Made by a program: the position numbers and the translations under genes
Shown: positions 3 through 4,844 of the stretch, piece by piece
How the letters are laid out: every line of letters starts with the position of its first letter
How positions within the stretch are numbered: the stretch's first letter is position 1
Assembly (NCBI GenBank): GCA_001803565.1
Contig: MHDQ01000184.1
Coordinates: forward strand, 1-6,446
Reading direction: 5' to 3'
DNA length: 6,446 nt
Origin: Nitrospinae bacterium RIFCSPLOWO2_12_FULL_45_22
Lineage (GTDB): Bacteria; 2-12-FULL-45-22
Notes under the pieces: generated by a model
The model's input: only the letters and a program-made list of their open reading frames with translations
Told to the model about the DNA's origin: nothing
The model's database searches: none

Positions 3-275
3 TTTGAATGGGATGAGGAGAAAGATAAGGAAAACCAAACTAAGCACAATGTCTCTTTTTCATTGGCTCAACAGGCGTTTCTTGATCCTCACCGTGTCAT
101 TGTCGAGGATATTAACCATAGTACAGAAGAGGAAAGATTTTACTGCATTGGCCGTGTCGGTGACGGCATAATGACCGTGAGGTTTACGTATAGGGCTAAT
201 GTTATCCGCATTTATGGTGCGGGGTATTGGAGAAAAGGGAGGAAGATTTATGAGGAGCAAAATAAAATATACTGA
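3..275 (+). CDS. brnT: BrnT family toxin (type II toxin-antitoxin), 5' end missing
   Basis: This is a RelE-fold ribonuclease toxin of the BrnT family, which cleaves RNA and is neutralised by BrnA. The reading frame is open from base 3 with no start inside the window, so a few N-terminal residues are lost; 90 residues remain, about a full BrnT domain. Family signatures are visible: an N-terminal FEWDEEK, then KHNVSF and AFLDP, a central EERFYCIGR, and a C-terminal IRIYGAGYWRKGRKIYEE. The GAGYWRKG ending replaces the SARRAT-type ending of many BrnT proteins, pointing to a separate subfamily. The gene overlaps the downstream brnA by 26 bp, the usual toxin-first, antitoxin-second order. An internal TTG at 63 is not the start, because conserved BrnT sequence lies upstream of it. 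The family call is firm; activity is not shown. Confidence 0.88.
   Translation, partial: FEWDEEKDKENQTKHNVSFSLAQQAFLDPHRVIVEDINHSTEEERFYCIGRVGDGIMTVRFTYRANVIRIYGAGYWRKGRKIYEEQNKIY
236..243 (+). promoter_or_regulatory. Ribosome binding site that fixes the brnA start
   Basis: AGGGAGGA lies six bases before the ATG at 250, inside the end of brnT. An upstream in-frame ATG at 199 has no comparable site and would add 17 residues encoded entirely within brnT, so the start at 250 is preferred. Confidence 0.75.
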
Positions 276-489
276 TGAACCGATGGGCGAACTGAGAGTC
301 ATTAAGGATTTTCTTCCTCCACCGGATCAGTTGGTATTGAAAGAAGAAAACGTTAAGGTAACGATCTCTTTGAAAAAATCGAGTGTTGAATTTTTTAAGA
401 AAGAGGCCAAAAAACATCATACTTCATACCAAAAAATGATTAGACAGGTTATCGATTGGTACACTTCACATTATCAAAAGAGTGCCTAA
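250..489 (+). CDS. brnA: BrnA family antitoxin, ribbon-helix-helix DNA-binding protein
   Basis: The 79-residue product is a CopG/MetJ-type ribbon-helix-helix antitoxin that should bind BrnT and repress the shared promoter. The N-terminal half (about residues 1-34) carries the basic and proline-rich segment MRSKIKYTDEP and FLPPPDQ, which fits the toxin-binding part of BrnA. The C-terminal half is the DNA-binding module: a beta strand at 35-41 (VKVTISL), a helix at about 43-56 and a second helix at about 59-73 (SYQKMIRQVIDWY). The start at 250 has a strong ribosome binding site and overlaps brnT by 26 bp, so translation is probably coupled. The stop codon at 487-489 lies inside the R'' box (GCCTAAC) of the following attC-like site, as happens in compact integron cassettes. 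No separate promoter was seen; it should lie before brnT, outside the window. Confidence 0.85.
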   Translation: MRSKIKYTDEPMGELRVIKDFLPPPDQLVLKEENVKVTISLKKSSVEFFKKEAKKHHTSYQKMIRQVIDWYTSHYQKSA

Positions 490-1126: not shown

Positions 1127-2041
1127 TTAGGCCTTGGGGGTAGCGCTGGCTGCTCTCTGGGCCACAAACCCTTTAAGGCCCCGGTCTCTCCTCTCTTTAT
1201 ACAAGCTGATTTCATCGGGCCGGAAGCGGATATACTGCAGCATCAGATGCGCGCCATAATGGGCCCTCATGGCAGTTCCCCAGCCATTGATGTCCAACAT
1301 ACCACTAAACCATTCCTTAGCCAGGGTAAAGACCTCCGCAGGGAGGAGGCTAAGCATCTCAGCCCAGCGATTCACTTCCTCATCCAGCTTTTCTTTAGGC
1401 ACTGCCAGGTTTACCGTACCCAATTGCTCAGCCTCTTTGCCCGAAATCTCTGGCAGCATCCGGCCGCAATAAGCCTTATTAGAGCCAATGGGATAGATGG
1501 GATAATTGTTTATCCCATTAACGAAGCGACCAAAACCCCGGGCGCCAAACTGGGCATCCTCGGCTGCGATAGTAATGTCACACATGGCGGCTACAATCTC
1601 GCCCGCACCGATGCAATAGCCATGCACCTGGGCAATAGTTGGTTTAGGGTAGTTAAAGATGTCTTCATGCTTGTTGCAGCGCCGGCGCTCGAAGCCATAA
1701 TAGTCCACCACCGTGGGATTTAAACTGGGGCTTACCGGTGGGGATTCCTCTTCTTTGGGTGAGCTAAGGTCATGCCCAGCAGAAAAATTTATCCCGGCCC
1801 CCCTTATAACCACCACCTTAACCTCAGGGTCATCATTAGCCTGGTGGAGCCCAGCCAGCATATCGCCAAACATACCATCATTATAGGCATTACGTTTTTC
1901 CGGGCGATTCAGGGTAATATAGGCTATCTTGCCTTTTTTCTCATAAAGGGCATCTTTATACTGCCTGCCCTGATACTCCATATGTTCCCATTGGCAGAAT
2001 TGGTACTGGGTCTTAAAATCCCAACCAAACCCGGTAGGCAT
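1127..2041 (-). CDS. Enoyl-CoA hydratase/isomerase (crotonase) family protein, atypical active site
   Basis: This 304-residue protein is the last gene of the crotonase operon. It has an N-terminal extension of about 28 residues before the usual first strand, then LNRPEKRNAYND (44-55), the first oxyanion-hole segment INFSAGHDL (84-92) and the second segment HGYCIGAGEIVAAMCD (140-155). An insert at about 93-130 contains a proline-rich stretch and YYGFERRRCNKH. Aligned by eye to rat mitochondrial hydratase, the Glu144 position is Ile149 (with Glu148 adjacent) and the Glu164 position is Gly169, so neither catalytic Glu is kept. CoA-thioester binding is likely, but the reaction is unknown; simple hydration is doubtful. 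The ATG at 2041 follows AAGGAGGG at good spacing. That site overlaps the stop codon of the preceding gene 12 bases upstream, implying coupled translation. No terminator was found after it. Confidence 0.85.
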   Translation of the reverse strand: MPTGFGWDFKTQYQFCQWEHMEYQGRQYKDALYEKKGKIAYITLNRPEKRNAYNDGMFGDMLAGLHQANDDPEVKVVVIRGAGINFSAGHDLSSPKEEESPPVSPSLNPTVVDYYGFERRRCNKHEDIFNYPKPTIAQVHGYCIGAGEIVAAMCDITIAAEDAQFGARGFGRFVNGINNYPIYPIGSNKAYCGRMLPEISGKEAEQLGTVNLAVPKEKLDEEVNRWAEMLSLLPAEVFTLAKEWFSGMLDINGWGTAMRAHYGAHLMLQYIRFRPDEISLYKERRDRGLKGFVAQRAASATPKA

Positions 2042-2053
2042 AATTATCCCTCC

Positions 2054-2899
2054 TTAGAAATTTAGTTTCTTGTATGGCACATCCCTCTGCTTCAGGGCCT
2101 GCTCTAGTCCCTTTTGCTCTCTTACTTTAAAGAAATCAAAATCATCCGGGCCGGGCTGGCGGCGCTGCATAGCAACCGCCATACTGTCGGTAAAGCGCCA
2201 GGCCCCACCTAATCCCCTGGACTCTATAGCGGCATTGAGGGTGTCTTTGGTTATTGCCAGGGCATCACTATGTACCAGGCTTATACCCTCAGCCAGGTTC
2301 TTGACTTCTGATTCTAGCTTTGCTAGTGGGACAACCTGATTTATCAGACCCCACTCCTCTGCCTCCCGGGCCGTGAGGTAGCGACCGGAAAAGAATATTT
2401 CTTTAGCACGTTTGATACCTAGTAACCAGAGGAGAAGGGGCATCTGGGGCAGAATGCCGGAGCGTAGTGCAGGGTCACCGAACAAGGCATCTTCTGAAGC
2501 AATAGTGATATCACAAGCTAAAGCCAGGTAAAACCCCAGGCCAGTACAATACCCATGCACCTGCGCAATAGTTGGCTTGGCAATATTAAATATATATTCC
2601 AGGCGCCGGGTCTGTCGTCTCGCATTCGTTAAAAGGGTTTTGTAAGGTAAGGCAGTGCCAGGTGGTGGCAGAAGCACCTCAGCGGTCCCTTGGGCGCTCA
2701 AGTCCTGGCCAACACTGAATGCCTTCCCTGCGCCCCTTACTACCACTACCTTGATGTCCAGGTCTGGTTCAATAGCAGCAAAGGTCTTATCCAACTCTGC
2801 TAACATAGCATCATTTATGGCATTGAGCTGATCAGGTCGGTTCAGTGTTACCCAACCTATGTTATTGGCCTTTTCATAAAGTATATGTTGAAACTCCAT
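2054..2899 (-). CDS. Enoyl-CoA hydratase/isomerase (crotonase) family protein lacking both catalytic Glu
   Basis: The 281-residue product has a full crotonase fold: LNRPDQLNAIND (19-30), oxyanion segment KAFSVGQDL (59-67), a variable loop with PPPGTALPY (78-86), the second oxyanion segment HGYCTGLGFYLALACD (115-130), and FGDPALRSG (140-148). The residue matching rat Glu144 is Tyr124 and that matching Glu164 is Ala144, so classical enoyl-CoA hydration is unlikely. Isomerase, hydrolase or lyase chemistry on an acyl-CoA, or a structural role with a paralogue, remain possible. The C-terminal end (FFKVREQKGLEQALKQRDVPY) closely resembles that of the upstream paralogue at 3027-3911, indicating gene duplication. 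The start at 2899 has AAGGAGG five bases upstream. The gene is separated from its upstream neighbour by 127 nt of repeats, and from its downstream neighbour by 12 nt. Confidence 0.86.
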   Translation of the reverse strand: MEFQHILYEKANNIGWVTLNRPDQLNAINDAMLAELDKTFAAIEPDLDIKVVVVRGAGKAFSVGQDLSAQGTAEVLLPPPGTALPYKTLLTNARRQTRRLEYIFNIAKPTIAQVHGYCTGLGFYLALACDITIASEDALFGDPALRSGILPQMPLLLWLLGIKRAKEIFFSGRYLTAREAEEWGLINQVVPLAKLESEVKNLAEGISLVHSDALAITKDTLNAAIESRGLGGAWRFTDSMAVAMQRRQPGPDDFDFFKVREQKGLEQALKQRDVPYKKLNF

Positions 2900-2918
2900 C
2901 TCCGCCTCCTTGTTTAGT

Positions 2919-3028
2919 TAGGTCATCAGTCACTGGTCATTGGGTCATTTGGTTACTGGGTTATTAGGTTATTGACTCATGGGAGTGACCGATACCTAAT
3001 CACGTAATGACCTAATAACCTAATGACT
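2919..3028. repeat. Tandem octamers forming a long imperfect inverted repeat between operon genes
   Basis: Five octamers of consensus KGGTYATT run head to tail at 2934-2973 (TGGTCATT, GGGTCATT, TGGTTACT, GGGTTATT, AGGTTATT), with a looser copy before them at 2920-2927. Inverted copies (AATGACCT, AATAACCT) follow at 3006-3021. Together, 2951-2973 and 3006-3028 form two 23-base arms matching at 18 positions; all mismatches are transitions, and the core 15 bases match at 14. The loop is 32 bases. The right arm ends within the stop codon of the 3027-3911 gene. In the operon mRNA this would be a strong stem between two genes. It is not a CRISPR: there are no spacers. It resembles small dispersed palindromic intergenic elements. 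Confidence 0.7.
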
Positions 3029-3911
3029 ATCTTTTGGGCATAGGGAAATGTTTTAGGAAGGGAAGGTCCCTCTGCCGGATAGCCTCTTTCATGCCTTTCT
3101 CTTCCCTGACCCGGTGGAAATCAAATCCTCCGCGATCAATATAGCTGCGGCCGGGGCGCTGGGCAGCGCTCAAGGCATGATAATTTGTGGCCAGGCGCCA
3201 GCCCGCAGCCAATCCTGCCATGTCAAAGCTAGCCCGGTCAAAGGCAAACCAGCCTACCTGCATATCAAACCCACCGATAGTGCCATACTTAGCTAAAGTA
3301 TCGGCATTGATAGCTACCTCTTCCTCCAGTTGTGCTGCTGGCAGGGACTTCATTACCAGCCCCAATCTTTCTGCCTCCCGGCCATCTATATATTTGCCGG
3401 TAAGGAGTAGTTCTTTGGCCTTCTTAAGCCCTATGCGCCATACCCATAATGGGTTGGTAGGGGATAGGCCTATCCGGATGGATGGGTCACCAAAGATACT
3501 ATTCTCAGCAGCTATAACGGTACGGCAGCACATGGCCAGGTCACAGCCCATACCCAGGCAATAGCCTTCTACCTGCGCAATGGTCCAGCGAGGGAAATCA
3601 AAGATAGCCTGCCAGCGCAAATAGCTCTTCATAGCCGCTTCATATAGGTCACTCAGGAAGGGCTTAGTATTGGGGTCGGGTGGCATTACTTCAGCAGTAT
3701 CTATTCCAGTGAGGTCTTGCCCGGCGCTGAAGTTCCCTCCTGCTCCTTTGATGATTACTACCCAGATATTGGAATCTTTTTGTAACTCTGCCAGGCCCGC
3801 TTCGATCTCCCGGAGCATGGTATCGTTTATGGCATTTAATTTCTCTGGCCGATTAAGCACCAGCCTCCCTATCTTACCCTCTTTTTCTAATTTTATGGTC
3901 TGATAAGCCAT
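3027..3911 (-). CDS. Enoyl-CoA hydratase/isomerase (crotonase) family protein, Glu-to-Asp/Ser active site
   Basis: This 294-residue crotonase-fold protein is the second gene of the operon. Segments in order: LNRPEKLNAIND (19-30), first oxyanion segment GNFSAGQDL (59-67), a loop with MPPDPNTKPF (76-85), second oxyanion segment EGYCLGMGCDLAM (115-127), and FGDPSIRIGLSP (140-151). The rat Glu144 position is Asp124 (conservative) and the Glu164 position is Ser144, so one catalytic acid may remain. A C-terminal insert at about 205-255, rich in aromatic residues and alanine, is longer than in the downstream paralogue and may shape the acyl pocket. The ending FHRVREEKGMKEAIRQRDLPF matches that paralogue's. 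The ATG at 3911 has AAGGAGA at good spacing. The gap to the first gene is 26 nt. CoA-thioester binding is likely; the substrate is unknown. Confidence 0.87.
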   Translation of the reverse strand: MAYQTIKLEKEGKIGRLVLNRPEKLNAINDTMLREIEAGLAELQKDSNIWVVIIKGAGGNFSAGQDLTGIDTAEVMPPDPNTKPFLSDLYEAAMKSYLRWQAIFDFPRWTIAQVEGYCLGMGCDLAMCCRTVIAAENSIFGDPSIRIGLSPTNPLWVWRIGLKKAKELLLTGKYIDGREAERLGLVMKSLPAAQLEEEVAINADTLAKYGTIGGFDMQVGWFAFDRASFDMAGLAAGWRLATNYHALSAAQRPGRSYIDRGGFDFHRVREEKGMKEAIRQRDLPFLKHFPMPKR

Positions 3912-3937
3912 CTTTAGCTCTCCTTAGTCTGAGTAAA

Positions 3938-4771
3938 CTATTCTTCATATACTCCCGGGAAGCTCTCTTTCCTCCTGAACTTCAGAGGATCAGGCTTTTT
4001 CTTCTCCCAGAAAGATTGCTTATAATATTTTGCCTCCTCACTTCCATAATATTTCCAGATAGCATCATACATCAGCAGTTCCAGCCCTCTTATGTCAGCG
4101 CTAACGGCATTAAAAGCGTATTTGAGGGCCCTGATAGCGCCAGGGCTCTTTGCCAGAATCTCATCACACCACTTATCTACTTCTTCTTCTAACTTGTCAG
4201 GCGGGACCACTGCATTCACCAGTCCCATTTCTAATGCCTCTTTAGCGGTATAGCGCCGACATAGATACCAGATTTCTCTCGCCTTCTTTTCTCCCACTAT
4301 CCTGGTCAAATAAGCGGCGCCATAAGCAGCATCGTAGCTCCCTACCATAGGGCCAGCTTGACCGAACTGGGCGGTCTCTGAGGCTATAGTAAGGTCACAG
4401 AGCTGGTGCAGAACCTGCCCCCCACCTATGGCAAAGCCATTTACTGCGGCAATAACAGGTTTAGGTGTCTCCCTTATAAGGGTATGAACCCGGGGAACAT
4501 TCTTGAGCATATCAGACCTATAGCCTGCCTCTGCTTCCTTGGCGTCTCCTCCGGTACAGAATGCCTTGTTACCTGCACCAGTAAGGACTACTACCCCAAT
4601 CTTATCATCCTCACCAGCATCCATCAGCGCCTCTCCTAGCTCTTTACCAGTATGGGAGGTAAAGGCATTGAAGGCTTGTGGTCTGTTTATGGTTATCCTG
4701 GCTACTCCTGGTCTCTTCTCATAGATAATATCTGTGAAATTAAATCCCGCTACTTTTTCCCACTGTGCCAT
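3938..4771 (-). CDS. MenB/BadI-like crotonase: dihydroxynaphthoyl-CoA synthase or ketocyclohexanecarboxyl-CoA hydrolase type
   Basis: The 277-residue product is the first gene of the operon and belongs to the MenB/BadI branch of the crotonase superfamily, whose members form a ring by Dieckmann-type condensation (MenB) or open one by the reverse reaction (BadI). Signatures: AFCTGGD (70-76) and GFAIGGGQV (112-120) for the oxyanion hole; GPMVGSYDAAYG (140-151), giving catalytic Ser145 and Asp147; AREIWYLCRRY (164-174); and YYGSEE (241-246), whose Tyr242 matches the MenB active-site Tyr. The glycine at 140 resembles bicarbonate-dependent type I MenB. The ending EKKKPDPLKF is typical. No other menaquinone gene is nearby and three crotonase paralogues follow, so a degradative ring-opening role seems more likely than menaquinone synthesis, but sequence alone cannot decide. 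The start is ATG 4771, set by a strong ribosome binding site; a TTG at 4792 would place that site inside the gene. Confidence 0.85.
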   Translation of the reverse strand: MAQWEKVAGFNFTDIIYEKRPGVARITINRPQAFNAFTSHTGKELGEALMDAGEDDKIGVVVLTGAGNKAFCTGGDAKEAEAGYRSDMLKNVPRVHTLIRETPKPVIAAVNGFAIGGGQVLHQLCDLTIASETAQFGQAGPMVGSYDAAYGAAYLTRIVGEKKAREIWYLCRRYTAKEALEMGLVNAVVPPDKLEEEVDKWCDEILAKSPGAIRALKYAFNAVSADIRGLELLMYDAIWKYYGSEEAKYYKQSFWEKKKPDPLKFRRKESFPGVYEE

Positions 4772-4789: not shown

Positions 4790-4844
4790 CAAGCTTCAGC
4801 TCAAAGATTTTATCACCTCTCCTGTAAGATCACTTCTTTAAGCT

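Follow-up and report, generated by a model that had tools for sequence, protein, structure and literature searches.

Comparison With Described Systems

Crotonases are nearly always annotated singly, as enoyl-coenzyme A (CoA) hydratases. Four described systems or groups come closest to the run of four crotonase-fold genes treated here, which lies on contig MHDQ01000184.1 of Nitrospinae bacterium RIFCSPLOWO2_12_FULL_45_22; the window is that entire contig, 6446 bp, and the wider context in its own genome is thus beyond the contig ends. In the E. coli phenylacetate hydratase-isomerase PaaF-PaaG, two crotonases of one pathway form one particle (PMC4498308), and the thn operon of N47/NaphS2, for anaerobic naphthalene degradation, holds the crotonase-like ThnA, ThnL, ThnM and ThnU (PMC12016498). 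A third point of reference is the group of MenB, BadI and EchA20, which have Dieckmann or retro-Dieckmann chemistry in common (PMC5380842). All four genes of the run follow one another on the minus strand across 1127-4771, with no gene interposed:

3938..4771, minus strand: P0004, MenB/BadI-type crotonase of 277 aa, first in the run and outside the conserved trio (alternative TTG start possible at 4792)
3027..3911, minus strand: P0003, divergent crotonase of 294 aa, trio member with its own clade in the tree
2054..2899, minus strand: P0002, divergent crotonase of 281 aa, trio member in the sister clade to P0003
1127..2041, minus strand: P0001, most divergent crotonase of the trio, 304 aa, extended at its N-terminus by ~27 residues

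The best explanation of the whole, to which we give a probability of about 45%, is that the trio are specialised paralogous crotonases acting as one unit, likely on a cyclic acyl-CoA. PaaF-PaaG resembles a possible complex of the trio in that different crotonases of one pathway join in one particle; it differs in having two paralogues instead of three, in its stacked homotrimers and aerobic pathway, and in that PaaF keeps both catalytic glutamates. The thn operon, compared by description, likewise brings several crotonase-like proteins together, for anaerobic ring degradation, but it includes dehydrogenases, thiolases and aryl-CoA reductases, none of which is in the window; an acyl-CoA dehydrogenase adjoins the trio only at locus L063 (below). 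P0004 falls inside the MenB/BadI/EchA20 group and the trio outside it. The nearest curated families and folds to the trio are the PRK08290 and PRK08272 crotonases and the structures 3t3w, 3ome, 4k29 and 3njb. Both glutamates are absent from 3t3w and 3ome too, per the alignments, but the trio reaches at most 179 bits against the family cut-offs of 257 and 280, and the four structures carry no annotation beyond probable enoyl-CoA hydratase, with no triplet described.

Conservation of the Trio

All four proteins belong to the crotonase superfamily (PF00378), with scores of 219 bits for P0004, 134 for P0003, 147 for P0002 and 116 for P0001 against a cut-off of 27. The gaps between the open reading frames (ORFs), in the gene order P0004-P0003-P0002-P0001, are 26, 127 and 12 bp, and a strong Shine-Dalgarno sequence precedes each.

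A species-wide scan gave one close relative of P0001 (61% identity), on JAUXFK010000042.1 of 'Deltaproteobacteria bacterium CSMAG_2901' (G060). In this genome the three divergent genes are adjacent again in a first triplet, ordered P3-P1-P2, and in a second on another contig, ordered P2-P3-P1, such that gene order differs at all three loci and nothing is interposed within any triplet. The scan used exact peptides and missed the second trio of G060, so relatives may escape it. The orthologues are as follows:

L045:7963-8901 (61% identity) and L063:3005-3979 (57%), orthologues of P0001
L045:8921-9778 (49%) and L063:1111-1956 (53%), orthologues of P0002
L045:7079-7966 and L063:2039-2905 (~51% each), orthologues of P0003

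The orthologue relation is one-to-one for all three proteins, at identities of about 50-61%, with P0001 the best conserved (57-61%); identity among the paralogues is only 34-41%. A maximum-likelihood tree of 32 crotonases places the trio members in three clades, with those of P2 and P3 as sisters, and each clade has one member per locus; the paralogues therefore predate the separation of the loci. The trio is ancient and has been kept together while its internal order changed, across two phylum-level lineages. Paralogue genes conserved side by side, as would be expected of a PaaFG-like hetero-oligomeric crotonase, are found at three loci in three orders. Adjacency conserved with permuted order fits proteins that are needed together, and the trio is probably a functional unit. 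P0004 has no close relative in G060 (best 40%) and therefore looks like a local addition, making the conserved block 3+1 instead of four.

These results bear on an earlier note on this DNA, whose interpretation is partly supported overall. Its description of four consecutive crotonase genes without an interposed CoA enzyme holds, and the arrangement that it called unusual is more than chance, since three of the four stand side by side again, in other orders, at two more loci. Conservation of the block, which it had proposed to look for, was found for the three paralogues, linked in both lineages, but not for P0004.

Joint retention could also reflect three separate homo-oligomeric enzymes that carry out consecutive steps of one pathway, share an operon for co-regulation and form no complex. 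Most operons are built like this, the several crotonase-like proteins of thn operons act as separate enzymes (PMC12016498), and the conserved residues peculiar to each clade (below) agree with it. It would, however, be unusual for three crotonase steps to follow each other with no dehydrogenase or thiolase gene between them, and strict triplet adjacency at all three loci in three orders exceeds the needs of co-regulation; this alternative is less likely than not.

Active Sites and Structure

Ordinary crotonases of the window's own metagenome bin (C299, C61 and C289) keep both Glu144 and Glu164 (rat numbering). In the alignment with them, the equivalents of these two positions are I, E, G and G, G, G in the three members of the P1 clade, Y, Y, Y and A, S, A in the P2 clade, and D, D, F and S, S, S in the P3 clade. 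The catalytic glutamate pair of a canonical enoyl-CoA hydratase is thus missing from P0001-P0003 and from their orthologues, and the trio scores under every curated hydratase cut-off. Each clade has invariant polar residues of its own, namely an RRRC[NQ]K[HY]EDI stretch and SPP loop in P1, Tyr124, Asp142 and Arg146 in P2, and Arg130, Asp142 and Arg146 in P3, and the oxyanion-hole glycines are invariant in all three. The suggestion of three paralogues that have diverged and differ in their active sites is upheld, none being a canonical hydratase. Two single-chain structure models, made with eight sequences as input and of moderate confidence (predicted local distance difference test scores of 63 and 72), have crotonases as their top Foldseek matches, the nearest being structural-genomics entries labelled as probable enoyl-CoA hydratases and a 3-hydroxypropionyl-CoA dehydratase. 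From their sequences, the trio so appear to be acyl-CoA-binding crotonases that have departed from canonical hydratase chemistry.

That the genes are ordinary fatty-acid beta-oxidation hydratases from a recent tandem duplication is very improbable. All are PF00378 proteins, as this origin would have it, but a mutual identity of 34-41% and old clades common to another lineage speak against recent duplication, as do the lost glutamate pair and the missed hydratase cut-offs; an ordinary hydratase identity was rejected on the absence of the pair from P0001-P0003 and their orthologues. It is also unlikely that at least one trio member is a non-catalytic paralogue, serving as a structural or regulatory subunit of an active partner. 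In favour of this, P0001 is the most divergent, lacks a glutamate at the 164 site and a conserved one at the 144 site, and shows long loop differences besides its N-terminal extension. It is, though, the best conserved of the trio (57-61%), and CoA-ester binding is probably kept, because in none of the three clades do the glycines of the oxyanion hole or the polar residues specific to the clade vary.

Near P0001 the tree also has a broader clade of crotonases that lack the glutamate pair, its members occurring singly, one beside CoA-transferase and HGD-D genes (PF06050, subunits of 2-hydroxyacyl-CoA dehydratase / benzoyl-CoA reductase) and others beside HMG-CoA-synthase-like genes. These members are:

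L003:2618-3565
L004:1848-2723
L071:11031-11963
L069:3330-4193
L064:2267-3148
L045:3339-4268

Identity of P0004

The reading of P0004 as MenB/BadI-like stands, on model scores. In the alignment with 4els and in the tree it sits with this group, its S145, D147 and Y242 aligning with E. coli MenB Ser-161, Asp-163 and Tyr-258, and the equivalent of MenB Tyr-97 is also kept. The Ser/Asp/Tyr catalytic set is believed to be common to BadI. At MenB Arg-91, which is strictly conserved in MenB (PMC3637252), P0004 has Ala. Its scores miss the cut-offs of two MenB models (307/343 and 334/380 bits) and of the BadI (2-ketocyclohexanecarboxyl-CoA hydrolase) model (314/468 bits). An Oah/BamA assignment was also rejected (99.6/464 bits for P0004, with nothing in the bin over the cut-off).

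A MenB of menaquinone synthesis, beside the trio incidentally, would explain the four retained MenB residues, the MenB model scores of 307-334 bits and the lack of a linked P0004 relative at the other trio loci. Men-linked MenB controls, however, score 445-466 and 477-502 bits, ~100 bits over the cut-offs that P0004 fails to reach, the Arg-91 substitution is atypical, there is no men context, and no menD above cut-off was found in the bin (best 58 of 244 bits; bin 85% complete). This alternative is highly doubtful, and the MenB assignment itself was rejected on the sub-cut-off scores together with the missing menD. Given the Dieckmann or retro-Dieckmann chemistry common to MenB, BadI and EchA20, the best guess from sequence is that P0004 is a candidate ring-opening hydrolase.

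Possible Ring-Acyl-CoA Context and Function of the Trio

The host bin (G000, 3.67 Mb) has 67 HGD-D matches, compared with 29 in a relative (G001) and 17 in G060; examples are:

L081:3838-10784, HGD-D genes of G000
L007:4045-6568, HGD-D genes of G000

Most matches fit no curated subtype, with those on C43, C216 and C231 just under the BzdN cut-off and one pair near the BzdN and BzdO cut-offs. The whole bin has 18 crotonase matches. On C248 a P0001-related crotonase has a CoA-transferase gene and an HGD-D gene next to it, and on C53 two HGD-D genes adjoin a second MenB-like gene. Because benzoyl-CoA-reductase-type genes abound in the host, a ring-acyl-CoA setting is plausible, and so, without a direct tie to the trio, are cyclic acyl-CoA substrates.

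Two HGD-D genes contain an in-frame TGA at the position of the conserved Cys of the C[SA].HR motif in paralogues:

L005 (G000:C53):6642-7889, plus strand
L087 (G000:C148):about 3047-4270, minus strand

A tRNA-Sec is present, over cut-off, and the TGA probably encodes selenocysteine at a presumed iron-sulphur ligand. A gene on G000:C231 and one in G001 likewise read through TGA.

Around the first G060 trio (L045) are two CoA-transferases of family III, a hydrolase of the fumarylacetoacetase type and a protein with the metallo-beta-lactamase fold. A B12-dependent acyl-CoA mutase is encoded there too, with its large and small subunit (L045:12104-14399); it is divergent, far below the curated methylmalonyl- and isobutyryl-CoA mutase cut-offs. 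The second trio (L063) is followed by an acyl-CoA dehydrogenase and then by histidine-degradation-like genes.

If the trio acts as one unit, P0003, P0002 and P0001 would most likely be complex partners or catalyse consecutive steps on one CoA thioester. The oxyanion hole with which crotonases stabilise an acyl-CoA enolate would be retained, but may serve isomerisation or reactions at C-C bonds in place of canonical hydration; the substrate could be an alicyclic or partly reduced aryl-CoA from anaerobic degradation. P0004, apparently a local addition, might use reverse Dieckmann chemistry to open a beta-oxoacyl ring. Ring compounds are slightly favoured as substrates, and a physical hetero-oligomer is conceivable, if somewhat less than an even prospect. 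The strongest version, an obligate hetero-oligomer with three different non-hydratase active sites catalysing an undescribed isomerisation or C-C cleavage of a cyclic acyl-CoA in anaerobes, is unlikely.

Several points weigh against the trio being such a unit for ring compounds. The trio is known from no more than three loci, of which one genome holds two, and the neighbours of the two G060 trios are unlike each other, one lying near histidine-degradation-like genes, so that a single pathway is not obvious. Other crotonases too function without both glutamates, and loss of the pair alone does not reveal the reaction. Neither the ORF list nor the family matches give a reductase, ligase or dehydrogenase gene in the window. 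The ring-cleaving acyl-CoA pathway suggested by the earlier note has a plausible setting in an HGD-D-rich host. The CoA ligases or reductases for which it proposed to examine the flanks are missing from the window; CoA-transferases, an acyl-CoA dehydrogenase and the B12 mutase flank the triplets in G060.

A triplet held together through rearrangement and across phyla, all without the hydratase glutamate pair, is a clear candidate set for a CoA reaction not yet described or for an enzyme made of three paralogues. Its host belongs to a lineage of which few genomes have been sampled and in which ATP-dependent aryl-CoA-reductase-type genes are exceptionally numerous, a setting where little is known of how rings are opened in anaerobic degradation.

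Distribution

With the P1 profile, about 780 genomes were searched (395 from the phylum of G060, 8 from its order and 386 relatives of the window's genome), and the trio was found only in G000 and G060; with a P2+P3 profile, run on 395 genomes, it was found only in G060. The genome sets are samples, and most profile searches scored only the best candidates per genome. No relative was found on viral contigs, and plasmids gave relatives only under 35% identity among the best matches listed. A literature search on the CSMAG_2901 genome found no paper.

Source and Flanking Features

The source bin has a completeness of 85% and a contamination of 1.3%, and its phylum is represented by only two genomes in the collection used. 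The contig could be mis-binned; that the repeat in the 127-bp gap recurs on other contigs of the bin argues that it belongs there. Scans for promoters and terminators found no more than in shuffled sequence. Upstream of the run is a divergently oriented UDP-glucose-pyrophosphorylase-type gene. Past its downstream end, at window 3-489 on the plus strand, a BrnT-like toxin gene overlaps a putative antitoxin gene, a weak BrnA match (20 bits, under cut-off).

The gap itself is the following feature:

2900..3026, no strand: intergenic gap P0003/P0002, 127 bp, with a dispersed GTCATTAGG-type repeat and no gene

Its folding is weakly better than that of shuffles (z -1.9). GTCATTAGG or its complement forms the core of a short repeat dispersed in intergenic stretches of the bin, with copies at:

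window 2900-3026
L007 near 3430-3490
L080 near 462-495
L008 near 10376-10395
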